Below are positions 11,101 through 63,737 of a stretch of 64,000 bases of DNA, in pieces. The translations under genes and the position numbers were made by a program. The notes under the pieces are model-generated. The model saw only the letters and a list, made by a program, of their open reading frames with translations. It did no database searches and was not told the DNA's origin. Position 1 is the first letter of the stretch. Each line of letters starts with the position of its first letter. Origin of the DNA: Arctopsyche grandis (lineage: Eukaryota; Arthropoda; Insecta; Trichoptera; Hydropsychidae); NCBI RefSeq assembly GCF_051622035.1, contig NC_135367.1:29218001-29282000 (forward strand), given 5' to 3'.

Positions 11101-14100
11101 TTGGATTCTTTGGTCAATTGGGCGAAAGCGATCAAATCAAAGGTATGAATATTAGTATCTGGTGAATGCAATATTATATATGTGATCACATACGCAGAGT
11201 ATCACATGTACGTGCACACAACTTACATGCATTAAACGTATGTAATTGATTTCGAGTACATAATTCGTTTCCAAGCAATTTTCATCGCGAATATTCTCAC
11301 TAGATTTTGAATTCATATTATTAAAACGTTTCGTTGAAATGTATTGACGCTTTTATCAACAGATAACGGTATAAGTTCTACCCATTCTGGCTCAAACCAA
11401 TCGTTACACAGCATAGGAGGGTCATCTCGGCATTCGACTCCGACTCATCAGCCGCCCATCATGACTGTTAACACTACGGGTCAAAATGTTAACAAAGGCG
11501 CTAGTCACAGTCCCAGAAGGCCTTCAAACTCGAGCAAGGCTGGTGCAGAACCCGATAATATTATGATTAGTAGCGATTGCGTTAGTGAAGACTCCATGTC
11601 AACTAAGGATGAAGGTAATTCGTACATGAGCTTTTACATAAGTTGTAGTATGTACATAAATATTGACTTTGTTTAATTTAATTTATAGAAAACGATAATG
11701 GAAATCCACTTATGGATAGTTACGAAGCTGAAAGACTCGTATCTGAAAATTTAATTCTCCTCGAGGAAGATATTAAGTTGGACGCCAGACGTAGAAGTTC
11801 TAGTTCTGGAAAGAGTGAGACGACAAGTTTCAAAGGACGCATTACGGTTCCGTCTGAAACTGTCGATGACACACCCGTATACTTTCGGTATGCGCTATAT
11901 TACATATACATATGTACATTTAATGCTACAAGTAATTTTCAACATTCGTATTCTGTTTGTAGGAGTATCGTTTTTAGTCCAGAAGTACCTATTCGCTTGG
12001 ACTATCAGGGCAAACGAGTTGATATGACGCACGGACCGCTCGCCGGTTTGCTGATGGGTCTCGGACAACTCAACTGTTCCGAACTTCGTCTGAAACCTCT
12101 CTCTTATAGGTTTTATTTTAATACACTTATATTATATTGGGTTAGGAGTATCTCGAAATAGAACACTTTAAACTATGTATGTATGTACATAGGATAGCGT
12201 TATGCCATAAAATTATTTTTAAACTAAAACTTCTTTATGGACGGTATATGTAGTGGGTTGCTTTCATGTGAAACGAAAATTTAAAAATTACACCCCACAA
12301 ACCTAACTTGTTGCCTAATCGACATGTATGTAGATTTTGCGTAAAAAAGTTTAAGAATGGCAATCGGATAAGTTCCATAAGCAAAAGTCAAAACGTTGTT
12401 AGATATAATCTGTCAATAATCATTTAATTTTCAAGATATACATATGTATGTAACTCGTATACGAGCATTGAATTAATTGTGTATTATTGACATTCAAACA
12501 GGCACGGATTATTAGGCGTGGAACGATTGATTAAATGGGCGCTACAAGAATGGCTCAGCGATATAAAACGTCGTCAGCTTCCTGGACTACTCGGAGGAGT
12601 TGGACCCATGTATTCTTTGGTGCAACTGTGTACGTATGAAAATTAAATATAAGTAAATTTCTATTTAATTTTACGTGCGGCTCATTCATTTTTATATCAC
12701 CATATGTATATATTTAGTCCAAGGGATACGAGACTTGTTCTGGCTTCCTATTGAACAGTATCAGAGAGATGGCCGCTTCGTGAGAGGTTTGCAGCGAGGC
12801 GCTTCTTCGTTCACCACTTCCACAGCCATGGCTGCTTTAGATATTACGGCTAGGATCATACACCTTATACAGGTAAATCAATATTATGTATAACTGTGTT
12901 GTGTCCTATGAAATGTCATTGCATGGGTATATTAAGCCATATATTACATGTGGCATATTAAGTTATTAAATAAATAAAAAAATTAAAAGAAATGTGTCAA
13001 TTCTGTGTTCGGTCCACATAAAATATAATTAATTTAATATTTATATTTAATTATTTAATATAAAAAAAATGGTAACATACCTGTAATATAGTGATAGACC
13101 CAGAGAAATGTTATAATAATAGAAGTGCCTTTACGAATAAATAAATTGTGTCAATAATACTCGGTACGTCTCCATAACTACACTACAACGCACGTATAAT
13201 TAGAGTATAATTAGGGTCATCACATATTCACTACAGAAATTAAAGTTTTATTTACAATTTGAGTATATGGTGATGTTGGGCGTTGGTGGCCAGTCCGTTT
13301 CTTTTCTCAGTTGGCGGATTATTTTTATCCACTTTTTTGTATTTGTTTGTCCTTGGTAACTCTTAAATTAACGTGTAATGTATAGTTTCAACAAAACATA
13401 TGTATAATATAAAATGAACAATGTTTATATTAATTAAACTTAAATAATTGGTTATTAATATAATTGAGTAAATTTTTTTACATTTATTTAAAAATAATTT
13501 TTACATTTCTCTGGTGCCACCCCTGAAATTTTATGTAGATTGCGGGCGATCGCCATGACACTTTTAAAAACTGTCAAACTAGGATGTTAATTGAATAATA
13601 TGTACGTTACGTAAATGATCAATTTATTTATAAAAATGTATCCCATGTTGTTTATTGTGTGTTTTTGAATGCATCGTGTAATTTTTAACGATGCACTTGC
13701 CCATCTTGCGAATAATATAAACTAACAGAGAAGTTTTATCGGACCAAGCATCAAATACGACTGACCTCACTTGACAACAATATAACGCCTAAAGCCACTT
13801 CTATTATTATAACATTTCTCTGGATAGGTCCGATGAAAATGTTATCGCGTGTATTATAAGTAAAAACTACTTACCTACCACATACAATATAAAACACCAA
13901 TAGAAAAATTAATTTTCAATAGATAGCGCTAAATATTTTCCTAAAGGAAACATTGGTAGCAAACAGTATACATATGTACGAGTATATAGAAGTTTTTTCT
14001 TGATCTGCTATTATATTCGTACATTTTGCTGGCAGTGTTTTAGCTATGACGTACATATGTATGTCGAATCGAAACGACTATTATAGTACGGCGAGCATTA

Positions 14101-28312: not shown

Positions 28313-31300
28313 TTACGGCTGAATTCTGTCGAGGATCCACTTCAGGTAGTGATCGACTTTTGTATATATTGCAGGTGCGTTTCCTCCGCACATCGTTGTA
28401 CCAAACGAAACTATTCCGTACAGGTAATACTTTGGAATGCCGCTCTCAGCATCAACCTTGAATGACATTCGAAATTGTACGTTTTATTTGCCAACTTTTT
28501 GTATTCATCACATGTGTACGTACTTTCATGAGAGGTCCTCCGGAGTCTCCGCCACACGAGTCTTCGCCGAAGATTCCTCCGGCGCACGATTGACGCTGGC
28601 TGAGTTCTGCGCTTTTGTAAAATGCGGCACAAACGCTCAACGGGACCAGAGGGATCTTGAGTGTCTGCAGTACCGGGGCCAGCGCCTGTGTTGACATGTT
28701 TGTTATGCCCCATCCGGCCACCTCCATGATTTCTTTGTCAGTGGTGTTGAAAAGACCATGCGGGAGACATATCGGAGACACCCAACCTTGACGGTGGAAA
28801 GTGTGAATTAATTGAATATGTTCAACAAGTAAACGAATTAAATTCAACAAAATTACCATTGTAATTAGGTGCATGCTCGAGACGGAGGAGAGAAATGTCG
28901 TGTGATAGCTTAGGTTGGTTGTACTCTTCGTGTACGATCATTTTTATTATTTTTATGTCTTGGACTTCTTCTGCACACACTCCGTTGACGCAGTCGATTA
29001 ATTTGGATTGATCGTACTCTCCGAGTCTGACGATTTTTCTGGAATATTTTATTTTTTATTTTAATTTATACCAACAGGTACTCCCAATGCGCCATCCTGG
29101 CCAGAAACATTGTACATTTGATACAAATATTATTAGTATTATATACATACATATCAATTAATATCCAAAGAGACATCTATGGTCGAATTTGTAAATTTGC
29201 AGCATTTTATACAATTCGAGATTGCTGAAAACTCGAGATTTTGCGAGAAAATGGGTATGGTTGCCAATTTGTTGGAACCGTTTCAATGAAAATCAGATAA
29301 ATTGGCAAACTCTGATAGGAAACGATCGACCTGGAGTCACAAATCTGAGGTCTGGCCAGCAGAAGCCAGTGGGATTTGAACCAGTGACCACTCCGTTCAC
29401 AGCATTACATACTAACCACTGGTCTATTCTGCTAGTTTGTAAAATATTTATGTTTATATATGTTACAGTGAAAGCATATTTCAAGTGAAAATATACATAT
29501 TTTCACCAATTCCTATCCTAACCCTTAAATAATACCAACCCTAACAATCTAATCTTAAATGAATAAAACCAACCCTGAAAATGTTACCTAACCTAACCAC
29601 TGGTCCATTCTGCTAGTTTGTAAAATATTTATGTTTATATATGTGGTAGAGAATCCTGACAGGTGACGCTGTTCAGGACCACGGTTAGGATGAGGCGGTT
29701 GAGGTGAAGACCAAACACATGCGTTTTCAGGTTGTTTATTAAGATGATACGTGCAGAGGTTTAGCGACCAACCGCGCGGAGCACAGGTCCAACTGCGACT
29801 AACCATTACATCCCTGCCTCTTCTCACAATCAGTCGTAACATACCCTTTCTCAGCCTTAGCCCATACATCAGCCTTCGTTAATTCCCTACATATACATAT
29901 GTTACAGTGAAAGCATGTTTCAAGTGAAAATATATTTCCACCAATTCCTATCCTAACCCTTAAATAATACTGTGGCGGCTCGCTTATACGACATGGTCGA
30001 GTTTGGTTGCCTTCCTGCGAGTGGGAACCAACTCGGCTGGGTTCGGAGAGCCACTACTCACTCTGCCTTTAGCTGTCATATAATAAACACGTGCATTAAC
30101 ATGCCAGTCGTCTCATTCGTTCATCCCCCATAACTGGTGACCCCGACCCCGAAGCGAGCCGCCACAATACCAACCCTAACAATCTAATCTTAAATGAATA
30201 AAACCATCCCTGAAAGTGTAACTGGTTATGATTTCACTGAAACGTCAGTGAAAATATATTTTCACTTGAAATATAATTTCACGGTGACATATACACATGT
30301 ATGTATTCAAAGCGTCATCGACATGTCTACAAATAAATAAAAGAAGATCAAGAAATTGAGATGGAGTGCACTATTCCAAAAAACCTCTTCTATAATTTGT
30401 ATATAAAATTATTATTTTGAAGAATAATTTTATTTTACTACCGCCATCTATGTTTAAAACTAAAAACTGGATAAACGTCAGGCACTTTTCAGAAATTCAA
30501 ATTTCAAACGCGTCTAAAACGATATTTTTTCTCCATCGTAATGGCGGAGGATACTTAAGCTTATATTGATGACCAAAATGAGCAATATGGCAAAGTATGA
30601 AAACGATTGGATACGAGGCAAATTTTGAAGCTAAAAGGAGGTATGTAATATGTAAAAAGGAATACACAGATCACTGTGCGAAGAAGATAATTTGGGATTA
30701 ATATGTCATTATGGATGTATAATGAGGAGAGACAGAAAGTGAAATGACTATAATAATGGACATGGGATGTGTTTGGCACCCATGAGAGTGTAAAACGTTA
30801 CAATTCAGGTAAATTTGGTAAACTTACAAACTTGTTTCTTGCTCTTTGACGCAATGTGCTGCAGTCAATACGTATAGTTTACTGATGAGAGATCCTCCAC
30901 ATTGAAAATTGAAATCATCATCATCGGCTGTAATTTGATATGTGTATTATTTGACTGCAAGTTATTTACAAGCAATATGTGATTATGTATAAATTAGAGT
31001 TTCCAATTCGAATATATTCAGCCTATTTTGAACTATTCGTTATTTGAGCAATTATTCGTGAAATTCTAATTAAATATTTTACAAATATAGAATTTTTTTA
31101 ACATAATACAATTTTATTTTTAAATCGAAATGTTACTTTTTCTCTTTAATATATGTGGACTCCACTCATTTTAATTATTTTGAATTAATATTTCACACTG
31201 TTTTCTATTGTTTAAAATTAATTGAATATATTCGAATAGTTGGAAACTCTTGTTTAAATAGGCATTGAAATCTTAAAATAAATATAAGCATTCCCTTTTT

Positions 31301-35900: not shown

Positions 35901-38313
35901 AGGACATTTAAAATTCGCAAGCTTATTAATTAATTGAAAAAAAAATCTTTTTACATTAAATAAATTTAATTGAAAAAAAAGGGGTAACTTTTGCATGGGG
36001 CCAAATTTTTCTAGTTACGCCACTGAATTGTATAGGTATATAAATATATTGTGTAGTAGTAGAAAATATGTAACTGGAAGTAGACATATTTTCACACAAA
36101 AACTTGCTTCAATTTTTTTTCACATTTCTAATTTCCTTGAAACAAAAACTGTTAAAACTCGTTCACTGACCGACTGCCGCTCTAAAATTTACTAAAAATT
36201 TAATAACTAATTAGATGCAACGTTTTGGCGAATATAAAAACAGTTCACGCTAGCGTAAAAAAAACTATAATTCAACTGGTTTTTGAGTGAGGGGTGAATA
36301 AAATCACTTTATATACATATGTAAGTATCATTACAAAAAACAAGTTTCGATCGTACGGTGAGTATTCTAATATACATATAGGTACCCAAAACATATTTTA
36401 ACTGACCTTGAAATGGATACAAATGATTCTCACATTCTTTTCGCAAAAAGGATTGCATTTAAATCGCAATGACTGCAAGTGAACTTACTTCTGTAGCCGA
36501 GTCTGGCCATCCAGGGATAGTCTCCAAGCTTGGCATCCTCGCCTCCGACTATTCTATTAACCACGGTGGTGCCACAAGTTTGAGTGTTCAGAGCAGTCCT
36601 CTTCGTGTCTCTGTTTTCGTTCGGGTTCGGAATGACTACTTCGGGTTCAACTACTGGCGCTGGGATAGCCTCTGTAGTGGTTGTGGTTGTGGTTGTGGCT
36701 GGAACTGTCGTCGTTTCTGGCACCGGAGGAGGAGTTTCCAGAGGAACAGTTGTTTCGACAGGTGGTGGTTGCGATGGAGGTCTATAAGTTGAACGTCTTG
36801 GGTAAGTGGGATAGTTGGGATAGTGATTGTAGACGCTCGGTTCACAATCATGGCCATTGTTCCAGGTGGTCGGAGCTTCGGTAGGCGCGTGACTCCAGTG
36901 TGGAAAGCCATCACTATCCCAATAGAAGTGGTGCTTAGAAGTAGCACGTTCGTCTATATTGTAGGTTGGTTTCCTGTTACCGTATGCTCTCTTTTGCTTG
37001 TGTTTTTTGAACACCAGATAGTCGGTGAAGAGTTTGCAGCAGACGTACGGGGTGAATCCGCTAAAGCCGCACGTGAACTTTCTCACTAGGTTCACATCTT
37101 GTCTGGAGTAAGGTTGTTTCTTGAAAATAGAATAGGTCGCAGGACAGTAATGGTAGCCAACACAGTCACATTGCCCATAGCTTGATGACCTATAGTAAGT
37201 ATTGAACAAGCGTAAAAGTGTATTGTCGTCTGCAGACCGAACGTCGACCGAAGTTTCCTCTGAATTTTGGTCTGGAGGTGGTGTGCTATAAGTCTCCTCG
37301 GAATGTGGCAGTTCGTAGCTTTCGTACCAAGCTGAAAATTTAATTGGTTTTGATAAAATAACTAATAAAAGGATTTATTGGTGGTAAACGAGAGCATGAT
37401 TAATCGAAAATAAAGCTCCCACGACTAACATATGTATTATGTACGTATTTAGCAGAATTTTGAAAATATACCTATAAAGCATTAACTGGAATAGTTTGAA
37501 TGAATTTAAGAACTTCTGGATGCAATGGCTTTAATTAATTTTGCCTAAGGGGAAATTTGGGTGAACGTGGTCCAGGTAGACAGATATCCAAGAACCGGCA
37601 TTTTTATTACCTGCACGTTTGCAATCTACATATGCATATGTATAATAAGACGAATTTGGAGAAGAAGACTATGCTAAATTCCTAATGATAATCACCGAGT
37701 CTGTAAAGCTTGTCTATAATAAGCTATTAAATGCCGGCTTTAACAATATTGTAGAATCAACATACAATGTAGATGTATACATGAACTTATTGTTCAATGG
37801 AAAAACAAGCTTAAGTTGTTATGTAGCAGATAATTGCATGATTAATAAAGTTTTGGACAATACCTAAAATCATTCATTACATAAACCAGGATTTCAAAAT
37901 TAACTTTTAAGAAACAATTTACAGAAAATTTTTTCGATTATTTTATACCCGGGGTTTTTTTTGGCTCGTCAAACAGAAAATTAGCCTTCGTGTTTATTTT
38001 ATCTACTTATATTTTCGATAGTGTCAAAAATGGTTAAGGGTCATCTCGATTCGACTGGATGATTTTGTAATCCAATCTAACATTGAACTGGTCAGACTTT
38101 TGAACCTTTTATCTTTTTTTTTTTTAATATATGTAAACGATTGCGTTTTTATAATAGGTACATTGGGTTTTAGTGTTTTTCATGTAAGATATTATTATAC
38201 TATACGTATGTTGTTTACTTACAAGGATCAGCTGAACTGGACAGGACGTGCACAATTAGAAGAAGCACTATAATCGAAGCTTGGCGCTGAGCAAAGTCCT
38301 TTCTAAAGCCCAT
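32978..38313 (-). CDS. Clip-domain trypsin-like serine protease (SP2)
   Basis: Secreted zymogen of the insect clip protease type, which act in melanisation, Toll and clotting cascades (family knowledge). Seven minus-strand exons: 38223-38313, 36489-37331, 34945-35053, 34685-34866, 34492-34596, 33336-33488, 32978-33144; 1650 nt, 549 residues. An N-terminal hydrophobic stretch (ASIIVLLLIVHVLSSSA) is the signal peptide or signal anchor. The clip domain shows six Cys: QCDCVGYHYC, then TCGF, then YVCC. A Pro/Thr-rich linker with an eight-Thr run follows, then CGTTVVNR|IVGG as the activation site. Triad: LTAAHC, SNDIALV, GDSGGPL; Asp in MDACEGDS predicts trypsin-like specificity. The final intron splits the Gly of GDSGG. 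It is the likely paralogue of SP1 next door. Confidence 0.93.
33581..34246. mobile_element. piggyBac-type MITE (family P2), 666 bp, in a protease intron
   Basis: TTAA stands on both sides (33577-33580, 34247-34250). The ends CACATTGTATGCGGG and, inverted, CACTTTGCTTGCGGG agree at 12 of 15. A perfect 17-nt hairpin (AACGGAGATTACAGTCT and its inverse) lies at about 33597-33655. No coding capacity. Confidence 0.75.
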
Positions 38314-48824: not shown

Positions 48825-49425
48825 TTATTCAGCTATTTGGATAGGAATGTTATTATCAGTTAAGATTATTTGCGGAGAGTCGTCTTGATCGTCGATGACT
48901 TCCCTATTTTCGACTTCGACATCTTGTCCGTTGTGAGAGTTCTCCTCGACAGATATTACGTTTCCGGGTCTCGCAGTCACCAGTCCTTGTTCTTCAAATT
49001 GATCGGCGTCGATAACCTGCTTATTTCCAGACAGTTCTTCGTTTAACTTGACACCAAACGTTTCGTCTATTTCGGATAGCCTCTTGACCAGATTGTTCCG
49101 ATCTTCGCCAGTCCAATTCATAAACCAATCATTGAATAATTTAACCTGACGAGAAAGAACTCCATCAACTATTATCGAACTCAATAACAATACAATACAA
49201 AATTATGAAACAATCACTTACTCTACATTGGAAAAGATTCATAGGTTTATCTTGACAGTTGACGGAATTCAAAGCGTCGACAAGACCATTGACGTATGCA
49301 CCATTGGAGGACATTTTTTCAGCTAAAATCGGAATAAAGTCTTGCCTTTGGAAGTCACTCCACTCTTCAAACCACTGCACCATATATTGAAATTGTGCAC
49401 TATTCGTCAACATCGGAGCAGCCAT
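48825..49425 (-). CDS. C14orf119-like small protein
   Basis: Two minus-strand exons, 49222-49425 and 48825-49145, 525 nt, 174 residues, joined by a 76-nt GT-AG intron. The first exon has FQYMVQWFEEWSDFQRQDFI and ends NLFQCR; the second opens VKLFNDWFMNWTGEDRNNLV. This doubled WF-x-x-W pattern around a Cys-containing junction is that of the uncharacterised vertebrate C14orf119 family, as I recall it. The C-terminal half is acidic and Gln/Asn/Asp-rich with no motif. Molecular function is unknown. An AG at 49456 suggests a 5' UTR intron. Gene start chosen at the first Met in the exon (MAAPMLTNSAQ). Confidence 0.78.
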
Positions 49426-50950
49426 ATTTCTAAATGTTTTCTTGTATAAATATCTGAAAAACCAAAAATAAAATGATAATAAACAATACTTAAAGAAATA
49501 TGACCGATTTAGATGAGAATGTGAGTAAAATATTTACACCACTTAGCACGTTGGCGTAAACTTTCAAGCTAATGCATTTTAAATGTGTCTTTAGAAAAGC
49601 AAGGTTAACAACTATTTCACAGAACGTGTATATCTCTATTTGGACAGTACATACTACCAGATAACAAAGTTTACTTTACTACAAAGAAAGGATATTATAA
49701 TTCAAAATAAGAGCCAAATTTATGAAAATAGTTAATTGCAATAACATAATGTTTTAATAGCATGTGAAAATATTTAAAAACAATTAATTTGTTTTAGGCT
49801 ACAAAAATACAAATCTGACTTAATCTAGTATGAATATTCCGTCTCCGATAAAAAATTTTTTCAAATATAAATAACGTTAGTCATTAGTTAGTACATATTG
49901 TTATAGCAAATAACCAAGTTTTTGTTGTACGATTGTTTTTCTCAACTATTGTTCAAAAGATTTTAGTATGTACCAAAGTAGACTAAAACAACTTAATATT
50001 AACCTCTATTAAATGTTAACTTTTGACAAAAGACTCTTTCCGTTATATTGCAACTCGAATTGAATAAATTAATGACAGTTAATTGCAAAACACGTACACT
50101 TTAAAAATACGAAAATGCATGGAAAAATATTCAACAGTCAAAGCTGATTCAGAAAAATACATAATAAGTGCATTATTAGAGCGCGGTAAAAGATACGTCA
50201 CAGTATAGTGACGTACCGTTAAGTAAATGACGTTTACGCGGTAAATGTCACATAAAGATAAAAGACATTTGCGAATCAACGAAAAGTGTGATTTGTCGGC
50301 GAGTTTGTCTCAAAAATTGACGAAAAAATAAAAGTTAAAGCGTACAGTGGAATCAAACGAAAGTCAATCACAAACCTGGCAGATGCACCGATGACAGGAG
50401 CAATTAGTGTGGCAACACGACAAAATTTATTCCACATACTGACATTTTAATATAAGCACCGTCAAATATGGCCATTTAATTTATTGCTTCAAATGTTTAT
50501 GTATTAAGTTTATTTACAAAAAATACTTTACAACGCCAAAATTTACTGTGGAGCAGTATTTTGAAATATTTCGCATTTTTTTTACATCAAAATCAAATAT
50601 AAACAAAACAAATGATATTATTGGTTCAAAATAATTGGGGGACAAAATAATACATCAAATATAACATTGTTATCTTTATTAAAATTACCACTATTTAAAC
50701 TTACGATTCAAATATTAAATGCGGTTTGGTGATTACATCCCAAATGTGAATCACTACCAGGATAACCGCCGCTACGAAAAAACGCAATTGCAAGTCTCAG
50801 TTCTTAAAACGATGTTGTTAATTAAAATCAATTTTAAAAAATCCTGCCAAGAATTTCATTCTTATTTAAAAGCAAACCCAGTAATACTTAAGAAAATTTG
50901 TTCATCAGAAAAATATAAAACAACATAAATTTTTTATATTTATATTATTC
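49426..50950. other. Upstream region of the C14orf119-like gene and spacer
   Basis: AT-rich. The probable 5' UTR/promoter region is within 49426-50450. The short frames around 50079-50930 show no recognisable domain. Confidence 0.3.
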
Positions 50951-51249: not shown

Positions 51250-51360
51250 GTTACAATTAATAAATCCCTTTTAAATAAATATATCCATTACACCTTGAAT
51301 TTCTTCCCACGTAGGTAATTTGGTTAAATCCGCCCATTCAAATATTACTAATTCTTCTAT
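51250..51360 (-). pseudogene. Remnant of an LTR retrotransposon pol C-terminus
   Basis: The minus strand reads LVIFEWADLTKLPTWEEIQG followed by a stop, similar in form to the short chromo-like tail after the integrase of Gypsy-type elements. It lies directly inside the primer-binding-like tandem repeats of the element at 51362-52513, as if most of gag-pol had been deleted. Confidence 0.45.
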
Positions 51361-51361
51361 A

Positions 51362-51695
51362 GGCGGGGTACATGTGTGTTGGCAGCGCTGTTGCATGATC
51401 AGAAGGTTGCGTAGATCACGTCGGGGGTCACCAATGTAGGCGGGGTAGGTATGTTGGCAGCGCTGTGGGCTGCTGTGAAGGCTGCGTAGTTCAAATCACG
51501 TCGGGGTCACCAATGTAGGCGGGGTACATGTGTGTTGGCAGCGCTGTTGAATGATCAGAAGGTTGCGTAGATCACGTCGGGGGTCACCAATGTAGGCGGG
51601 GTAGGTATGTTGGCAGCGCTGTGGGCTGCTGTGAAGGCTGCGTAGTTCAAATCACGTCGGGGTCACCAATGTAGGCGGGGTACATGTGTGTTGAC
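51362..51695. repeat. Tandem repeat, about 78-bp units alternating A-B-A-B-A
   Basis: GGCGGGGTA starts at 51362, 51439, 51518, 51595 and 51674, spacings 77, 79, 77 and 79. Odd units contain TACATGTGTGTTGGCAGCG and GATCAGAAGGTTGCGTAG; even units contain GGTATGTTGGCAGCGCTG and GTGAAGGCTGCGTAG. Each full unit ends in CGTCGGGGTCACCAATGTA, the inverse of an LTR end plus TTGGTGACCCCGACG. The array is derived from the LTR-leader junction of a retrotransposon. Confidence 0.85.
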
Positions 51696-52513
51696 CGTAT
51701 CCCAGCCTAACGAAACACTGTTGTGCTTGTTTTATAAAGTTTTATTGTTTGCCTATGGTTGTACAAAGGTATTATATTTGGGCAAAAGTATGTCGTTCAG
51801 CGGTCTCTGGATATGGTAGAGTGTCGCTGGCTCGGCATTCGTTTATGTTCAGAAGGTCTCTGGATGCGGCAGTGTGTTGTTGGCTCGTCGTTCGGCTATG
51901 TTCAGAAGGTCTCTGGATGCGGCAGTGTGTTGCTGGCTCGTTGTTCGGCTATGTTCGGAAGGTCTCTGGATACGGCAGTGTGTTGCTGGCTCGTTCGGCT
52001 GGTTGATCTTCCAAGTCCGCGTGGTGTAGTGGTGGCAGGTCAGGAGCTGGATGTTGACTGGTCTGCTGCTGTGTGTCGACGCTTGCTGCTGTGGGTCGAC
52101 TGGCGTTGTTTGGGTTGTACCTCCTTTTATAGTGTTTCTGGAATCACCTGACCCATGGTGGTGGTTGTTGATGCGTAAGCGAGGAATTTGCTTTTGTCGA
52201 TGGGGTGGACTTTTCTGGAACGATTGGCGCCGTTCCGCTCGATGTAGTTTAATGGCGGCGGCGTGTTTCGACCGTTTTGGTTCCGCTCGACTGGTAGGGG
52301 CGTTCCGCTTGAGTTTAATATAATGGCTGCAGGTGTGTTTCGTCTGGTTTTGTTCCGCTCGAGTGTGAGGGGTGGAACATTGAAGGAACTGGCGATTGAT
52401 TCCAAGAAGTGCACGTGTTGTTTACGTGTGGTGAGTTCTGCGAGGAATGTGGTTTGTTGTTGTGGAATATTCTCGAATGTTTCGATGACGATGACGATGA
52501 CGAGATTCCTACA
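51670..52513 (-). mobile_element. LTR of a retrotransposon (family L), about 844 bp
   Basis: On the minus strand the unit starts TGTAGGAATCTCG (52513) and ends CCCCGCCTACA, followed by TTGGTGACCCCGACG as a primer-binding-like stretch. TGTAGG...CCTACA gives matching inverted ends. It contains a 53-bp minisatellite (51802-52010). The open frames within it are not recognised proteins. The internal region is almost wholly lost. Confidence 0.65.
51802..52010. repeat. 53-bp minisatellite, four copies
   Basis: GGTCTCTGGAT begins units at 51802, 51855, 51908 and 51961, exactly 53 bp apart; each continues with GGCAGTGTGTTGCTGGCTCG-like sequence. It lies within the family-L LTR, and 53 is not a multiple of three, so it does not maintain a reading frame. 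Confidence 0.9.
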
Positions 52514-53269: not shown

Positions 53270-55410
53270 ATGGGGAACTGTTGCAGTGTCGAACAGTAAT
53301 TATTTCTAATTCATATTACCATCCATCCATATACATATTATACTTTATACGTACATCTGTACTTTCGTATGCAATGTCACATTCAATTTGACATGTATCA
53401 CATTATGTACAAAAGTTTACAATGAAATTAGATCCAATGAAGCATAACACATATACACACTCCTCAATTTTTTTTTATCAATATTATTTATACTCATGTA
53501 CATGTAGTTGCTTACCAATTTTAAACTTTTCCAATGTTTTCCAGTATTTTATGTGAGTCATTTCATAAGTCGCCGGCTATAATATGTTCAGGGTGGACTA
53601 AATGTCAAAGTAGGATTTGAGGAGGCACTAACTTGCTTTGTTAATGAATCAATTTTGATGATATTGCATACAATAAATATTCAATAAAGCCTCAATCATA
53701 TCCCAATATCTCAAACCAGCAACTGTACATAACATTATTTCAAATAATGGACATGTCACTTAATAATAAATACTATTTGAACTCGATTCTGCTACATGAA
53801 ATGTATATACTAAGGCTCAATTATATACATAGGTAATATACAGTTGGCCCACCGACAACACTGTCCCTAATAACACATACCCAATGTATCGAGCATGTGC
53901 CGTTTCGAATACATATGTACATATGTAAACATATCAGTAATTGGAAGATTGGATCATCGATAAAATATTTATTGACTATACTAAACCCCTACTCTGACAT
54001 TTGGCGCATTCTATAGTTGATATCGTATCTTTTTAAGTTTATAAAACAAGTAAACATATCGCAAAAATGCGATAATAAATTGCATCTGAGTGATTTCACC
54101 AGTTTTTTTTTGTAACCTTTTGTTAATTAACAATTTTATTTGTTTTCCGTAGGGAAGATGATCCAAATATTCTGCCATACATCGTGCACACTGGTACTGT
54201 TGCCAATCATCATCAACAACGAAATATTGAAAATCGTCGACCGCTTACGACTATTAATCAACAACCGAGGCCTGTATTTGTCCAACGTCTAAGTCGTATT
54301 GATGGCAACGATGTTAATAATAGAAAGAAAAATGTCATTTCTATACAAAAACAAAATAATTACAACCGTCAACCATTGACTGTTAATCATCAACAACCGA
54401 GAGTTGAATCAAATCAACGAAAAAATCGTACCGATGTCGAAAATCAACAAAATATTGGCGTATGTCGGGGAAATGGTGCTATTCCAAAAGGGCGATCAAA
54501 TATAGCTGCCTCGAGAAGACCAAATTCTACTGATAATCAACTAAAAACAACCACTAATCAAAATATACTAAACAGACCAGCAGCTATAGTGAACCAGATT
54601 CCACCGACTGTTAATCATCAACAACCGAGAGTTGAATCAAATCAACGAAAAAATCTTCGCAGTGTCGAAAATCAACAAAATATAGGCGCACGTCGTGGAA
54701 AGGGTGCTACTCCAAAAGAGTTAACAACCACTAATCAAAATATACTCAACAGACCAGCAGTTATAATGAACCAGATTCCACTGACTTTTAAAATTCTCGA
54801 GAATTTTATAAACTTTAGAAGTAATATTCCAGCAAATTACATTAAAAGTTGCAAGCAAAAATTGTTGGAAATTAGGCAAATCAAAGACTCATTCATGAGG
54901 ACAACTCAGAAACATTTTAATGTCATTAATGTACAACAAGTTTTAAATCCTTATTTAACAGCTGCATTCATGCTTCGAAAGAAGGAGTATCAAATTCGTC
55001 ATTTAAATTGTGAGGTGGAAGAAAGATTATTATTCCACGGCACTAAAAAGTGCTTTGTAAATCTTATAGCGAAAAATAATTTTAATTGGAGGTTGCACGG
55101 GAAATCCAGGGGGAACATATTTGGTCAAGGTGTGTCTTTCTCGCCAATTTCCAATTATTCAAGCAATTATTGCGATGAAAATGTTACCCGAAGATATATG
55201 TTTGTTTCATCTGTTCTCATTTGTTTGGAGTGTATCGGTAACATAAATATGAATTTCCCTCCAGCTGTCGATAAGGTGAGTCGTATCTTTTATGATACAA
55301 GTGTGAATGCAAAGAAAACTGTAGTAGTTAAATATAGAGACGACGATTTTTGTCCAAATTACATCATACATTTTGAGGGATATGCTGCGAAGAAAGATTC
55401 ACAACAATGA
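53270..55410 (+). CDS. PARP-catalytic-domain protein, copy 1, predicted N-myristoylated
   Basis: Two exons, 53270-53295 and 54153-55410, joined in phase 2 (GAACA|GTAATT ... CCGTAG|G); 1284 nt, 427 residues. Exon 1 encodes MGNCCSVE, a myristoylation signal (Gly2, Ser6) with Cys4/Cys5 for palmitoylation. Residues about 10-215 are Asn/Gln/Arg-rich with a 76-codon internal duplication. Residues about 215-420 match the PARP fold of the mono-ADP-ribosyltransferase branch: VLNPYLTAAFMLRKKEYQ, LLFHGTKK (His304), IFGQGVSFS, YSSNYC (Tyr348), FYDTSVN, FCPNYIIHFEG. Aligned by eye to human PARP1, the triad Tyr is Ser337 and the triad Glu is Val399. Poly(A) signal near 55530. Catalysis is doubtful; function is unknown. 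Confidence 0.82.
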
Positions 55411-55882
55411 AACAAGTTTTATGCGAGGAAATCAAATCTTCTATATTGAATACACTAGTAAATTAATTTTGTATGCATACATACCTATTTATATACTACA
55501 TTGTGTATCTAAAGTAACAGCTGAACATAAATAAAAAGTACATCTTCCCAAAACTATCTTGATATTCCCAAATGATATCCACTGGTAATGAATATGTTCA
55601 TTTGTAATATTGAATTTTGTATGCATGTACATACCTATTTACATACATTGTGTAAGTTAAAAAATAGAAAAATATTCTTCCAACTGTCATAAATATGTAA
55701 TATTATACAAAATTTTATAATTAATTGCCAAATTTAGCTGAAAACCAAAAAATATGTAATTGGACTTACGCCACTTTAATTTGTAATTAAACTTTAAAAA
55801 CATATGTAAATATAAATTTATATTTTAAGTTAAATGTAATTTTATAATGCGACAAATAAAAATTGAAAATAAAACTTGTGTA
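55411..55882. other. 3' flank of PARP-like copy 1
   Basis: AT-rich 3' UTR-like sequence with AATAAA at 55530-55535. No other feature seen. Confidence 0.35.
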
Positions 55883-56190
55883 TAGGGCCGCCAAGAGGGG
55901 GGGGGGGGAAGCTGGGGTTAAAGTTCCAGGGCCTGGACTACTTGAGGGGCCCCGTGTTGGGACTTTCGACTGATCGATATTGATATTTTATATATGTTTA
56001 CATAAAAATACATATTTTTTATTAAATACTAAATGTTTATTATTTTTCCGATCTATGCATTCTTTGTGTCCATGTAAAATCGTACCTGTTATATTATACT
56101 TTCTTATTCGATTATTTAAAAAAAGCACCATTTAACATATAGGTGTTTTTCTTATAATTCCAGGGCCCGGGATTCCTCTCGGCCGCCCCG
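55883..56190. mobile_element. hAT-type MITE, 308 bp, perfect target duplication
   Basis: Termini TAGGGCCGCCAAGAGG and CCTCTCGGCCGCCCCG are inverted; CTTGTGTA is duplicated on both sides (55875-55882, 56191-56198). A 14-G run follows the left end. The older homologue at 5181-5757 is interrupted by a SINE. Confidence 0.85.
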
Positions 56191-57510
56191 CTTGTGTATA
56201 AATCTTTTTCTTATTGATACTTATTTTTAAGATAGTAAATAGTCTAAACCTTTTTATATTTAAACGATTAATACTAGCTATAATATATTATTTAATCTTC
56301 ATGTCTCGTGGGCATAGGCAAGTAAGGCAGAGCTTAGGGGCGGCAAACCAAAGAAGGAAAAATATAATTGTAAATGTGAATTGAAATGATTTTTTTTCGT
56401 TTGTATCACATTTTTAGAAGACATAGATTTTTGAAGTTCGCTTAAGTTGCGGCACATAGTCCATGGACGTCAAACAATATTAATTTACACTGTTTGTATT
56501 TATATATGTATGTCCAACCAGTATAAACTGTGTTTACATATACCGTTTTATTTGAGGGTCATGTGCCGAGCTCAAACATGCCACCGTTCAGATCTTCGAA
56601 TATTCCAATTTTATCGTCTTGCTCAAACATGTAAAGACAATCTCTTTAGGGGATCACGATTTGGCCTCACATTACAATTCAATACCATTTCTATTGTCAT
56701 TGAAAGCCCATATATGATTTGTTTTGTTTTTGGTGCATAATTTAAGCTGCGACTTAAGATATAAATATGTATAAACGTGATAAACCAATACTTAATACCT
56801 ACATTTGTATTAGAGTAATTCTGTTGGAATTTTATCATATTTTTACTCGATAGTGATATTTGCGATTGCAGGACTCTCCCTCGTTTCTTTAGTATCTTCC
56901 AATCTTTGACGTGAGTTGTACTTCATTCACTTGTACAGGTGATTGTTAAGAGTAGTTATTTCATTTAGAGTATTTAACGTTTAACATTTACTGACGCATT
57001 TTCAATTTCACACACATATTTAAGTTAATGAACGTTCTTCATGTTATGTCGAATTTTGTTTACTTGACTTTTATTTATCTTCAGTTTTCGTTTTTATAAG
57101 AAATTATCTCTTTCATAGTGAGCAAGTGGTTGTGATCAAATTGAAAATGGTGGTATATGTTTGGAAACTAAAACAATCTACTGTAATTAAAAAATAATTA
57201 AAAAAATTGGCATTTCATAAAAGTTTTATATTGTTGTTTCTGGCTTTCGTTAATTTTTATTTTATTATTTATTTTTAGAAATACTATCAAACCAAAAGGA
57301 TTTTTATTTAAACATACATATGTGTATGTCTAATTCGGATTAAATCCATTTCTAGTAAAGAATTAAGAGTTGAATCCAAATAAACAACAAAATTTTGACA
57401 ATCGTTCAAGATTGTCAGTCAACAGAAGATAGACATCTATAATATATTATAGAAAAAATATGGTTTTTAAAGGCTTTTATTATAAATGGATAGTTAATTA
57501 CATGTCGTAG
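56191..57510. other. Spacer and upstream region of PARP-like copy 2
   Basis: No supported gene. Bases 57370-57430 (GTTGAATCCAAATAAACAAC, GTCAGTCAACAGAAG) resemble the Asn/Gln-rich coding region of copy 1 but contain stops, so they may be the decayed N-terminal region of copy 2. No MGN-type first exon was found here. Confidence 0.4.
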
Positions 57511-57544
57511 AAAAAAGTCTGCCGACAAGAAGCGAGGAAGAGTA

Positions 57545-58546
57545 ATGGAAAATCAAAATAGAGCACATTTGTTAAACAGACCACTGATAACAGGTCAGAT
57601 TCCACTAACTTCTAAAATTCTCGAGAATTTTAGAAGATTTAAAGGTAATGTTCCAGATAATTACATTAAAAAATGCAAAGAAAAGTTGTGGGATTTTAGG
57701 AAAATCAAAAAATTATTCATGAACACAACTCAAAAGCATTTTAAAGTGATAAATATAAAAAAGGTCGTAAATCCTTACTTACAAGCTGCATTTATGCTTC
57801 GAAAAGAAGAGTATCTAATACGTCATTTTGGTTGTAATGTGCAAGAAAGATTGCTATTTCATGGCACCAAAGAATGTTTCGCGGAACTCATAGTTAAAAA
57901 TAATTTCAATTCAAAGTGGGGTGGATTGTCCAAGAGGAAAAATCGCGGAAACGGCATATGTTTCTCAAGGATTTCCAATATTTCCAGCCATCACTGCGAT
58001 AATAATGTAACTCAAAGATGCATGTTTGTTTCATCCGTTCTGATATGTTGGAATTGTTATGGTGATAAGAAAATGGCTTTTCATCCAGCTGTTGACGCAA
58101 CGAAACAAATCTTTCATGATACCAAAGTGAATCCAAAGAAAAACCTTTTTTTCAAATACAGAGATGATGAATTTTGTCCAAAGTATATTATATATTTCAA
58201 AGGATATGCTATAAATAAGGAAAAAAAATTGAGGTACACAACAAAAGTTATAATAAATGAAAATGTAAAAAAAAGGAGTGTTAAACATGACATTGATATT
58301 AATTATGTAGATGATATTGATTATAAATGTGATATTTATGACATGCATTATAACCACAAAAGATATAAAAATTATATTTATAACCGTAAAAATTATAATG
58401 TCGATAATTATGATCATAAAACGTTTAGAGATCGTAAACAGAAACATCTTAAAAAATATGATTTTTACAATCAAAACTGTGAAGCTATGACGATAATTAG
58501 AATTATTATGATCACAATTAAAAAGCTGTTTATGCATATTACATAA
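57545..58546 (+). CDS. PARP-catalytic-domain protein, copy 2, divergent
   Basis: The open frame from the first Met gives 333 residues. The domain lies at residues about 15-225: NRPLITGQIPLTSKILENF, LLFHGTKE (His106), GNGICFSR (Cys139 at the triad Tyr position), SSHHC (His150 where copies 1 and 3 have Tyr), then FHDTKVN, Leu201 at the triad Glu position and FCPKYIIYFKGY. An extra C-terminal tail of about 105 residues is rich in Lys, Asn, Tyr and Asp and is absent from the other copies. In-frame coding continues upstream to a possible acceptor at 57510 (GTCGTAG|A) in the same phase 2 as the other copies, but no first exon is seen. It could be a degenerating gene. Confidence 0.65.
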   Translation: MENQNRAHLLNRPLITGQIPLTSKILENFRRFKGNVPDNYIKKCKEKLWDFRKIKKLFMNTTQKHFKVINIKKVVNPYLQAAFMLRKEEYLIRHFGCNVQERLLFHGTKECFAELIVKNNFNSKWGGLSKRKNRGNGICFSRISNISSHHCDNNVTQRCMFVSSVLICWNCYGDKKMAFHPAVDATKQIFHDTKVNPKKNLFFKYRDDEFCPKYIIYFKGYAINKEKKLRYTTKVIINENVKKRSVKHDIDINYVDDIDYKCDIYDMHYNHKRYKNYIYNRKNYNVDNYDHKTFRDRKQKHLKKYDFYNQNCEAMTIIRIIMITIKKLFMHIT

Positions 58547-59675
58547 AACAACTATGATTTAATAATCATTATTATGATAAAAAATATATAAGCTATTTCC
58601 GATTTATGCACACATATATGTACACATATACGTATAAAATACATAATACATACATATGTACATATGTATGTATGTATAATACAATGGCATATAAATCCCA
58701 CTTTCATGCCATTTTAGAATAATATATATACACTAGTATAAATATTTTAAATTTATAATACATATGTATTTTAAATAAAAATAGGATTTGTTATTTTTAT
58801 ATTATTATATATGAATAAATGTACACAATTATCAATTTGTTTTTTTTTTATATTACATAATCCATAGTTAATTTCATTGCCCCTCATTAACTGTATGTAA
58901 TGAAATTTTGAAAGTTGGTTTCAAAGCGGATTTTATAGAAACATGTTGTGTTGTCAACTGTAATGGTCAAAAAAAGATAACATTTAACAAAAAATTGTTC
59001 TTTATACTAACCTCTTATACGTTTCACATGGTTTTCGTGTAAGTGGTCATTTTTTATTAACAATTTTATTTATAATTGTGCCGGTTATTATTAAAGTGGA
59101 AGAAGTCATTTAATGTATCCAAAATACAATTATTTTACAAGGTAATCGTAAACTTCCACCATTACAGGAAAGATTATATTTATAAGGCTTATGTAATCAT
59201 AATGTACAGTGTTTAAATTTTTTTACATAAAACTCTAATGTATTTTTATGTAGTATCGAAAAAATTTTAAGACAAGTTTACACAAAAGCCCAATTTTCAC
59301 CTTATCTAATTTCATCCAAATAAAACTATTAAAATTTGATAGTTGATTAGTCCATAAATTCAATTATTTCTTCGATTTTTATAGCAATTCATACAATTAA
59401 AATTGAATTTATCTATTTCACCTTGCAATAAATTTCCTTTATATTCAGTTCAGATTTTATTTTGATGATTCTTCATATCTATGACTTAATATATTCGCTA
59501 ATGTATATAAATTAGTATTAGTATTTGATGAATTACTACATATAATTGGATCAGAACATATAAGACACGAAATGGAGGAAGTTCATCTGTAACACTGAGA
59601 TATTTCTTGTTTACATAAGAATATTTATTATTATGAATTGTTCATTAAATCATCATAAATATCAATATCAAGAAC

Positions 59676-59836
<161 letters not shown>

Positions 59837-60099
59837 CATAAAAATGAGAAGAATATTTATATACAATCAAATCTTTTGTCACGTAAATTTAATCATCACT
59901 AAAACTTTCTCATACATATGTATATTTGATAAACCAAAAAGACCATCGCTACTTTGATTTGAAGATGATAATCTAATAAAAGTATATATTAGAGTTTTAG
60001 GAGATAAAAGCTCATTTGAAAAATTTTAGTATTAGTTTTTGGCACCAACAAGTTGTCGTGGTTATTGGGGTTATATATAGAAATGTTATAATTAATGAT

Positions 60100-60290
60100 T
60101 TATTTTATAATTAATTTATATATTTATATTTTATATTATTTTATAATTAATTTATATATTTATATTTTATATTATTTTATAATTAATTTATATATTTATA
60201 TTTTATATTATTTTATAATTAATTTGTATATTTATATTTTATATTATTTTATAATTAATTTATAAAAATATATTTATTTTATAATTAATT
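60100..60290. repeat. 36-bp tandem repeat, about five copies
   Basis: TTTTATAATTAATTTATATA recurs at about 60103, 60139, 60175, 60211 and 60247, always 36 bp apart, followed by a degenerate end. Composed solely of A and T except for single substitutions. Confidence 0.9.
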
Positions 60291-61769
60291 ATTTATTTAT
60301 TTTTGAAATGTTATAATTATTGCTAGAGGTCGGACCGGAAGCGTGCCGTTCATTGTTAATTGTTCGCTGTGCTTTGTCCAAGGACATATAATTTTTTTTT
60401 TAATTATATCTCCTAACAAAATAAATTTAATGATATTCAATGAATTCTTCGATACGTCGCCTATGATTAATTATGATAATGTTTATTAATTAAATAAAAA
60501 ATATTTCTATTTATGATTGTAAATCATTAATTTATGCATGTCCGCCATTACTGATTTTTACTTTATCTATGTACGTAGTAACAATAGATGAAGTTTTGTG
60601 ATCATGCGAAAATTCCAACTCGAGATTTTGACTGATTCGAACTCAGAATCGATTACTGATCACGTTTTCGTGATCTAGAAAAAATGTGTGTGTGTGTGTC
60701 TGTGTATTTTGGGGATTTTTTATATACCGTTAGTAAGTTTCAGTTCAATAGAACTGAAACTTAGTATCGGTTACTGAAATTCTTATCGATACGACGTAAT
60801 TTTTTTTCAAATTTTGAAGTAGACCGGAAATGGTACCTCCCCTTATAAGTGTCCTTTTTTTTTAAAGTTTTTGAATTCAATTATCTCCCAAACCCCTAAT
60901 TAAATCGGACTAAATTTTTTTTTACATGTAATAGAAATAATAATCTTTTTAACTTTATATTTTTAAAATATTTTTATCTAGTATATATATTCATATCTAG
61001 AAGTTTAAGCGTAATACCAAGTTATGTATAAAATTTGGTAAGCATCCCTCAACCGGAAGTGGTAGTTTACTCTTGTTCGATTTTTCTTCCACTATTTTTT
61101 TCGACCCCTTATACATGTGTGATCTTCACGAAATAAATCAAGTATAATTATTCTATCAATGTGATGATAATAAAAAAAAAGTCACAAAATTTAATAAACC
61201 GGAAGTGGGATTATTATCTCTTAGAAAGGTCAAAAATGTTGTCGCCTGGATTCTGTCCACCCCCCTGAACATATTAAGCTGAAAATTTATTTTTGTATTC
61301 TTTATGTACTAACTTAGAATTGCTAACGTTTTGGTCAATTCGTAAACCGGAAGTAGTATTTTTTTTTAAAACAATATTTCATTATTTTATTTTAACCTTT
61401 TAAATTGATTTAATTTTCTTGATATTTAATGAGTATAATATAGTGATTTGATAACCTGATAGTGATTTTAAGTAATAAAAAAAATTTGAACAAAATCTGA
61501 CAACCGGAAGTAGAACTTTTGTCTTGTGCAAGTTTCCATACATTTGCGCTCAATTTGTATCGAAAATGCTGTCATAGTTATATGTAACCTTCTTATATTC
61601 CTCAAATACATAGATTAAGTCATGGGTTGGTCACACCCGAATTTTTTTTCGCGTACCACCGCTGATATACAGGTAGGTAAAAGAAAATATTTTTTAACAA
61701 CTCAAGTTCATACTTAAAAATTTTATATGTTATACATAATTATTACTATCAGAAACTTTGTTTTAACAC

Positions 61770-62297
61770 TAGTGGTTTTACCCGGCTTTTTTACCAATTT
61801 ATTTGAATAGTTTTGTTTTATTAAACTTAACGTCACGGATTCTACGAACCAACGATAGTTACATACATACAAAGTGTCTTTCGAAATTATATATTATGTA
61901 GATTATACTGGAATCCGGCGGCCCCCCCGGGCCTTCGCCCCCGACGCCCCAAGGGCGAGGGCCGGTCCCTCGTCTGCATGTCGTCATGGAAACTTTGACT
62001 TGTTTACAAAGTTCCCAACAAATGTTACATACATACAAAATCTCTTTCGAAATTATATATTAGATTTTAATGAGGCACAACACTATGCTTGTTTTAGTAT
62101 GTTTTAGAAAACAATTATAATACATGTATGCGGTCTGTATATTATTTTATAGACGCATTTAAAATGAAATTATCATTTGAAACTTGTTATTAAATTTGAT
62201 TTTATATGTAAAAATCAATATTTTCACTTTTATCAATCCAATCACTTATTAAGCGGTTTATAATACAAATGCCGAGCGAAGCCGGGTAAAACCACTA
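61770..62297. mobile_element. Terminal-inverted-repeat MITE (family C), 528 bp
   Basis: TAGTGGTTTTACCCGGC at the left and GCCGGGTAAAACCACTA at the right are perfect inverted ends. The YARNG-like start suggests hAT, but flanking octamers do not match. A GC-rich patch (61915-61975) lies inside, and AAAGTGTCTTTCGAAATTAT and AAAATCTCTTTCGAAATTAT form an internal direct repeat. A decayed relative begins at 283. Confidence 0.75.
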
Positions 62298-62594
62298 GTT
62301 TTATTATACATAAAACAAATCGTAAATACTTCTGTAATCATTATAAAATATTTAAAAGTCGGCTAAATCAAAAAAGAGAACATTTTGAGCATATTTTACA
62401 AGAGAGAGAGAGAGAGAGAGAAAGTAAAATAAAATGAGACATATTCTGTCGAAAAGGGGGCTGTTGGAAACCCTACGATATGGCCGATTGAATAGTGAAG
62501 AGTGAGCTAAAATGAGTGTGGCGGTTTAGGGATTTTCCCGTCGAAGGCTTCCCAACCGTTACTTTTGGGTGATTGACGCGAGTCGCACTTTGCA
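62298..62594. other. Upstream region of PARP-like copy 3
   Basis: Includes a GAGAGA microsatellite (62401-62424) and, at 62506-62524, GAGCTAAAATGAGTGTGGCGG, similar to the sequence before copy 1. Likely promoter and 5' UTR. Confidence 0.4.
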
Positions 62595-63737
62595 ATGGGG
62601 AATTTTTGCAGTTTATTCAAAGAAGAGTAAGTATTCACATTCGCATTGATATTAATATAGTATACAATCCCACAACGAGTCCAGCTTTTACGCGTAAGAC
62701 GATTTAAATGGTTGTGTATCACATTACAACGAGCTTGGACTGAAATTGTCCGTGTCAATGTTCAAGGCTTTTTGAATGTCATATTTTATTTTTATAAATT
62801 GTTAACAGTTTAAGCATAGATACATTCATGCATTGCAAAGATATTTTATATTTAAAATAGATTCAATTTCAATTGCTAGCGTTTACTTTTGAAATCGTTA
62901 TTATTAACGTTATAAAAATAAATTCCATGTACTATTCGACGAAGAATTCGCGTGAACGGTTTTATTAAGTTTTTAAGCTATGCCTAATTTATAATATTAT
63001 TGGGTTACAGCAGTGAAGATGACCAAGATACTTATAGAGGATACGCTGATACTGTTTCCAATCAACGTCGACGGCATACACCCAATCAACGAAAAAGTCG
63101 TAGCAATGAATATCGTCAAAACGTTGGCGTATATTATGAAAATGGTGCTAGAACAAGTCGGAATCCATTGACTTTAAAAATTCTCAAAGTCGTGAAATTT
63201 AGGGACATTCCAACAGCTAATTATATGAAAAATTGCTCGAATGCGTTGGAAATTAACAAAATCAAAGAATTATTCATGAACACAGCTCAGAAGCATTTCA
63301 GAGTTATCAATGTACAACAGGTATTAAATCCTTATTTAACAGCAGCATTTATGCTTCGAAAGAAAGAGTATCAAATGCGTCATGGTAATTGTGACGTGGA
63401 AGAAAGATTATTATTCCACGGCATTAAAAAGTATCAGGTGAATGCCATAGCAAAAAATAATTGTAATTGGAGGCTTGGCAAGATTGTGTGTTTCTCAACC
63501 ACATCAGAACACTCTAGCAATTATTGTGATGAAAATGTAACTCAAAGATGCATGCTTGTTTCATCTGTTCTTATACACTTGGAGTGTGATGGTAATAAAT
63601 ATATGGATTTTCCTCCGCTTGTTGCTACAAAGGAAAATATTCACTATGACACAAGTGTGAGTCAAAATAACAATGTTAAAGTTAAATTTAGAGATGATGA
63701 ATTTTGTCCAAAGTATATTGTACATTTTGAAGGGTAG
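62595..63737 (+). CDS. PARP-catalytic-domain protein, copy 3, predicted N-myristoylated
   Basis: Two exons, 62595-62626 and 63011-63737 (or 63014, tandem CAG acceptor), phase 2, donor GAAGA|GTAAGT; 252 residues (251 with the second acceptor). Exon 1 encodes MGNFCSLFKE, with Gly2 and Ser6 for myristoylation and Cys5 for palmitoylation. The low-complexity region of copy 1 is reduced to about 45 residues. The domain reads RDIPTANYMKNC, VINVQQVLNPYLTAAFMLRK, LLFHGIKK (His147), IVCFS (Cys171 at the triad Tyr), HSSNYC (Tyr182), Val233 at the triad Glu, FCPKYIVHFEG and stop. It is closer to copy 1 than copy 2 is. Same strand as both, so a tandem cluster. Confidence 0.82.

Follow-up and report, generated by a model that had tools for sequence, protein, structure and literature searches.

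Insect PARP-like proteins with a putative N-terminal lipid anchor and an altered NAD pocket, viewed from a tandem array in Arctopsyche grandis

The question raised by a tandem array of PARP-like exons in Arctopsyche grandis (Trichoptera, Hydropsychidae) is whether their products are held at membranes by an N-terminal lipid and, if so, whether they belong to a wider family. The array lies in a 64-kb stretch of contig NC_135367.1 (assembly GCF_051622035.1, positions 29,218,001 to 29,282,000), here called the window and numbered from its first nucleotide. Three PARP exons (copies 1 to 3) follow one another there on the + strand, and the original prediction, made from the sequence, was that copies 1 and 3 each receive a myristoylation signal from a tiny upstream exon. 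Comparison with other insect proteins indicates that the array probably belongs to an insect family of small lipid-tethered proteins of the PARP7/11/12/13 type with a remodelled pocket for nicotinamide adenine dinucleotide (NAD).

Copy 1 and its relatives in insects

Exon 1 of copy 1 (53270..53295, + strand) has 26 nucleotides, starts with an ATG at 53270 and encodes MGNCCSVE plus 2 nucleotides, a signal of the N-myristoylation/S-palmitoylation type. It is followed by a phase 2 GT-AG intron of 857 nucleotides (53296..54152, + strand; GT donor at 53296, AG acceptor ending at 54152) and by the main exon, which includes the stop codon (54153..55410, + strand). The main exon encodes a disordered linker of about 220 residues (approximately residues 10-235) and then an ADP-ribosyltransferase (ART) domain (approximately 54829-55386). 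The joined exons are open and in frame and give 427 amino acids with the N-terminus MGNCCSVEQ. This product is identical across all 427 residues to an NCBI protein of A. grandis, P0001 ('protein mono-ADP-ribosyltransferase TIPARP-like'), so the same splice was picked independently by the NCBI gene model. The splice and open frames of copy 1 are established as a gene model, and the predicted joining of the 26-nucleotide MGNCCS exon in phase 2 to the PARP exon is confirmed letter for letter.

Sites encoding MGNxCS are unlikely to arise by chance: a first-order Markov simulation of 300 single strands, each of 64 kb, produced none. The window itself has two on the + strand, each upstream of a PARP exon, and none on the - strand.

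Relatives were sought with a seven-row alignment (E ≤ 0.001), which gave 354 proteins, and the best 120 of these form the family set. Named sources are cockroaches (Blattella, Periplaneta, Diploptera), termites (Cryptotermes, Zootermopsis), locusts (Schistocerca), many beetles, a flea (Ctenocephalides) and Arctopsyche, genera which we take to represent several insect orders. Some environmental records carry the source label 'poly [ADP-ribose] polymerase 7/11/12/13'. The only Pfam domain found in the best 120 is PF00644, or none at all (P0089).

A Met-Gly (MG) start is present in 72 of the best 120, spread over several orders (cockroaches, termites, locusts, beetles, a flea and the caddisfly). 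The start was compared with a simple PROSITE-type myristoylation pattern (Met-Gly, then a small residue at position 6), and 71 of the 72 fit, with Ser or Thr at residue 6 in 62 and Ser itself in 60. Copy 1, as P0001, is among the 71; copy 3 fits by eye. In proteins from named species the pattern is present in 30 of 56, covering 20 of 31 genera (records labelled 'S.' being counted under Schistocerca). MGGLFS is the commonest start, and MGNLCC, MGNCCC, MGCCFS and MGSLFS also occur. The recurrence of MG starts across several orders strengthens the case for membrane tethering put forward in the original prediction, and such tethering is the likely consequence of the motif. Relatives encoded elsewhere in the A. 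grandis genome begin with MEIFCCCF (P0002), MGNLCS (P0003) and MGGLFSS (P0046). The contig that carries P0002 and P0046 is as long as the one with P0001 (29,525,130), and P0003 is encoded on a different contig.

Two parts of the initial description need revision. A dual myristoyl/palmitoyl signal suits the Arctopsyche copies and some others, but Cys is found at residues 3-8 in just 16 of the 72 MG proteins, so dual acylation fits a minority and most members would be myristoylated only. Nor is a separate signal exon a hallmark of the family. In P0005, P0038 and P0060 (environmental records of genomic or transcript sequence) the open frame runs upstream of MG, and the MG signal and PARP domain share one unbroken frame.

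The PF00644 match begins at a median residue of 121.5 in the 72 MG proteins and of 64 in 42 others, fragments included. The linker behind the signal is variable and contains, for scale, 1.6% Gly. As to other starts in the best 120, six proteins have an in-frame downstream Met that begins the pattern, one (P0002, MEIFCCCF) has Cys only and two pass a hydropathy cut of 1.9 for hydrophobic N-termini. One of these two is P0095 (2.73). Hydrophobic starts without MG are also seen in P0008 (1.75), P0070 (1.08) and P0067 (0.87), and in these four proteins they are perhaps membrane helices replacing the lipid. The other protein that passes, P0087, probably owes its start to a gene-model fault, since P0085, with an identical catalytic part, begins with MGGLFSS.

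No description of such a PARP family appeared among the papers listed from the openly licensed PMC literature, outside which subscription papers mostly lie. In a 2010 survey insects were represented by Drosophila or Anopheles alone, and its insect sequences are all from Diptera (PMC2964712). Near the PARP7/11/12/13 branch, a 2014 survey noted some Tribolium proteins, few in number, in which the PARP domain stands alone, with WWE domains sporadic (PMC4245714). According to a 2021 paper, arthropods appeared to lack homologues of ZAP/PARP12 (PMC8102003). N-terminal acylation is absent from the consulted passages of these three papers, and the string 'myrist' occurs 0 times in the main texts of PMC2964712, PMC4245714, PMC8102003 and PMC1266365. 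The family set includes Tribolium P0083 and proteins of other darkling beetles, which resemble the Tribolium proteins of the 2014 survey by their description; the portion of that account available mentions neither N-terminal signals nor a Tyr-to-Ser change. In our view PARP biology is mainly seen through vertebrates and Diptera.

The NAD pocket and its possible use

The domain was correctly described as PARP-like, since the main exon of each copy contains PF00644 (53.5, 46.8 and 31.9 bits for copies 1, 2 and 3; cut-off 26.7); what had been overlooked is the altered catalytic triad, with Ser or Cys for Tyr. Pfam gives only PF00644 in these exons, with no CCCH zinc fingers and no WWE domain, features that are common but not obligatory in the PARP7/11/12/13 branch. 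The domain has the ART fold, and its nearest relatives are in the PARP7/11/12/13 branch. Its top sequence matches are PARP12 and then ZC3HAV1/PARP13, and its top fold matches are PARP12, in a comparison made with PDB chains; neither PARP7 nor PARP11 is among the matches listed.

The pocket was examined in 122 aligned rows, with a profile built from five of the seven query rows. All seven queries had Ser at the place of the triad Tyr and only best matches were counted, so the counts overstate uniformity. The triad His is kept in 118 of 122 rows, including copies 1-3, and is Arg in four; the Gly after it is invariant (122/122). At the position of the triad Tyr, Ser is present in 109 rows, Cys in five, Tyr in four, and Asn and Thr in two each. 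The position of the triad Glu, which marks the poly-ADP-ribosylating H-Y-E PARPs, has Val in 114, Ile in four, Met in two, Leu in one and a gap in one. A second Tyr is kept in 112 of 122, and the Ser preceding it is mostly Ala (103/122). In copy 1 the pocket includes His304 (55036-55038) and, at the position usually occupied by Tyr, Ser337 (55135-55137); copies 2 and 3 have Cys there. The triad Tyr is conserved in all human PARP members (PMC1266365). Because it is replaced here, the proteins are better called PARP-like than canonical PARP enzymes. The rows with Arg are P0088, P0089, P0099 and P0109 from Diploptera and Blattella, each starting with MG or having MG close to the start. In P0109, from a cockroach, the second place of the triad is still Tyr.

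Several known proteins share part of this design. The catalytic domain of human PARP12 (PDB 2pqf, 8xpx, 6v3w) reads GKGSYF where GQGVSF is found here, a change of Tyr to Ser; unlike PARP12, the main exons in the window have no Pfam zinc fingers or WWE domain, and an N-terminal signal of the acylation type is present instead. The next-best sequence match is the PARP domain of ZAP-L/PARP13 (ZC3HAV1), a protein which is lipid-modified and membrane-associated and whose PARP domain is inactive; its antiviral activity needs both this domain and a farnesylated CaaX box, and it associates with intracellular membranes (PMC8568172). ZAP-L is, by analogy, the nearest functional parallel, although its lipid is at the C-terminus, and a regular expression for C-terminal CaaX matched 0 of the best 120 insect proteins. 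PARP16 is also a membrane-anchored PARP, through a C-terminal transmembrane region (PMC4245714), but it belongs to a separate clade and has a different kind of anchor at the opposite end. Single triad residues are shared with other subfamilies. The tRNA 2'-phosphotransferase Tpt1 (H-H-V) has Val in third place, as here, and ADP-ribosyltransferases of the ART2/VIP2 type (R-S-E) have Ser in second place (PMC1266365).

The mechanism that these features suggest is as follows. N-myristoylation of Gly2 would follow the removal of Met1. For the copies in Arctopsyche, palmitoylation of Cys4 and Cys5, or of Cys5, is probable as well and would fix the protein at the plasma membrane or an endosome. The lipid would keep the protein on the inner side of the membrane, and the linker would let the ART domain reach into the cytosol. 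The domain itself (H-S-V) keeps the His and second Tyr of the NAD pocket, the triad Tyr being replaced by Ser and the catalytic Glu by Val. Acylation, membrane binding, NAD binding and function are predictions made from sequence.

We think that the domain still binds NAD+ or ADP-ribose. There is a slightly better than even prospect that it carries out mono-ADP-ribosylation of an altered kind, and a chance just short of even that it is a non-catalytic docking domain. On the second possibility, somewhat less likely than not, NAD chemistry would have been lost altogether and the anchored pseudoenzyme would serve as a membrane-held scaffold for protein or ribonucleoprotein, as does the inactive PARP domain of ZAP-L. 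The replacement of both the triad Tyr and Glu, the Ala that mostly precedes the second Tyr and the Arg at the triad His in four cockroach rows are all in keeping with such a loss, as is the dependence of ZAP-L activity on an inactive PARP domain together with a lipid (PMC8568172). However, the triad His, the Gly after it and the second Tyr are retained in nearly all rows, the triad Tyr has been replaced mostly by one residue, Ser, and variant triads (R-S-E, H-H-V) occur in other ART families (PMC1266365).

A tethered family with a remodelled pocket would combine an N-terminal signal of the lipid type with a non-standard triad, and so would be a new route for placing ADP-ribosylation, or the sensing of NAD or ADP-ribose, at membranes. 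It is a natural test of the purpose of the triad Tyr and, among invertebrates, a possible counterpart of the lipid-anchored ZAP-L. Tandem duplication within one lineage suggests a role in defence or stress, and analogy with farnesylated ZAP-L suggests that the signalling would occur at membranes.

Descent and state of the window copies

Copy 3 begins with a putative exon of 32 nucleotides (62595..62626, + strand) which encodes MGNFCSLFKE plus 2 nucleotides and is proposed from homology to exon 1 of copy 1. A GT-AG intron with a GTAAGT donor (62627..63013, + strand) leads to the main exon, which includes the stop codon (63014..63737, + strand) and encodes a short linker and the ART domain. The acceptor (63004-63014) is of the NAGNAG type, with in-frame sites 3 nucleotides apart that give MGNFCSLFKEDSEDD or MGNFCSLFKEDEDD. 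The intron may thus end at 63010 or 63013, and an exon start at 63011, as originally proposed, or at 63014 keeps the frame and gives 252 or 251 amino acids, respectively. When exon 1 of copy 1 is aligned with that of copy 3, each with some 5' flank and the donor, the score is 40 (best of 200 shuffles, 27). Homology, frame and splice signals point to the 32-nucleotide MGNFCS exon, for which neither a transcript nor a database model was found. In the structure model the ART domain of copy 3 has a predicted local distance difference test (pLDDT) score mostly > 90; the loop that links HGI to the Cys replacing the Tyr is incomplete.

Copy 2 (57545..58546, + strand) is an open frame whose ART domain is followed by a long charged tail at the C-terminus (58210-58546). 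This tail, in which Lys, Tyr, Asn, His and Asp are abundant, has no equivalent in the other two copies. There are zero MGN codons on the + strand between copies 1 and 2, and copy 2 has no MGN exon upstream, so that the MGN start is retained in two of the three window copies. A hidden exon 1 was sought with the first-exon regions of the other two copies. Both align best at approximately 56906-56989, but the scores (26 with copy 1 and 32 with copy 3) fall below those of the best shuffles (36 and 36), so such an exon is not supported. A search of the window with 11 proteins (tblastn) revealed no fourth copy.

A quick tree was built from 118 rows, with seven fragments left out and three vertebrate rows (P0009-P0011) as the sole outgroup. 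The six Arctopsyche proteins form one group (support 99 in the Shimodaira-Hasegawa-like approximate likelihood ratio test, SH-aLRT), inside which the three window copies are nested together (100), so the copies arose within the Arctopsyche lineage. Pairwise ratios of nonsynonymous to synonymous substitution (dN/dS, Nei-Gojobori) are 0.28-0.41 among the copies, with the proportion of synonymous differences (pS) at 0.47-0.51; when copies 1 and 3 are compared over their first 60 aligned codons, dN/dS is 0.44. These values fit somewhat relaxed purifying selection over much of the history of the copies, and allow for recent decay of one of them.

Copies 2 and 3 might be partly decaying duplicates, with only copy 1 at work, a tentative explanation that concerns the window copies and not the family. 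Neither copy has a protein record among the database matches, and both deviate from the family at pocket residues. Copy 2 has no exon 1, and its upstream linker aligns with a score of 51 against 64 for the best shuffle; copy 3 lacks part of a loop. On the other hand, all three frames are open, with pairwise dN/dS values in a range that still allows recent decay, and copy 3 has an exon 1 with a good donor and a confidently modelled domain.

Distribution of the anchor and neighbouring features

When the catalytic parts were grouped by single linkage at 60% identity, 34 clusters resulted, 32 of them with an N-terminal extension of > 40 residues, and in 21 of these 32 at least half of the extended members have MG and the pattern. 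By the same measure the figure is 31 of 50 at 70% identity (54 clusters) and two of two at 50% (3 clusters). On the quick tree the MG state changes at least 15 times, with gain and loss indistinguishable and 51 of 113 inner branches weak. MG members are present in three of the four multi-row groups at the base of the tree. As many as 38 of the 118 rows come from a single clade, in which the species named are cockroaches and termites.

Several observations weigh against a lipid-tethered family with a remodelled pocket. By the rules used, 39 of the best 120 proteins show no anchor; some of these are fragments, and doubtful gene models are among them, as P0075 contains a stretch resembling the MG start of P0007. 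A 15-row group (support 83) with beetles as its named members contains zero MG proteins, so the anchor is not universal; a 10-row part of this group is a starred clade. The anchor was called with a simple pattern, from which acylation and membrane binding are predicted. Within the array, the NCBI model of copy 1 is computed. Copy 3 as a query matched only P0001, and copies 2 and 3 are absent as records of their own from the database matches. In both the triad Tyr is replaced by Cys, and in copy 2 the second Tyr is missing as well.

A bolder version of the tethered-family reading is unlikely. It holds that these proteins form an old, insect-wide class of anchored ARTs of the H-S-V type, selected to retain NAD chemistry with targets or products other than those of the H-Y-E/H-Y-I PARPs. 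Its anchor would have been swapped between myristate, myristate plus palmitate, palmitate only and a transmembrane helix, and its duplicates would act in antiviral or antimicrobial defence at membranes.

That these are soluble PARP-like proteins, with an MGxxxS start that is inherited or coincidental and free of lipid, is improbable: the domain dispenses with an MG start in the 15-row group with beetle names, but Ser at residue 6 is kept in 60 of 72 MG proteins, the start recurs in most clusters, the linker behind it varies and has little Gly, and in a few relatives a Cys cluster or a hydrophobic start takes its place. A viral origin and a prokaryotic origin or transfer were both rejected after scans limited to a few conserved stretches: none of the 17 pattern matches in viral contigs, and none of the 34 in genome contigs, was confirmed as a relative.

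Other genes are represented in the window. Pieces of serine protease genes, a trypsin domain and a CLIP domain, were identified by Pfam on the - strand (28455-28937 and 36433-37374). Two overlapping open frames on the same strand (48828-49533) jointly cover DUF4508 and are probably two exons of one gene. A weak match to the ATG2 C-terminus on the + strand (11682-12158; 21.9 bits, below the Pfam cut-off of 50) is perhaps an ATG2 exon. Tandem arrays with periods of 156 (2.1 copies, 99% match) and 53 (3.8 copies) lie upstream of copy 1 at 51360-51994. Between copies 2 and 3 there are a perfect (AT)77 run (59680-59833) and 5.7 copies of a 36-bp repeat (60100-60302).

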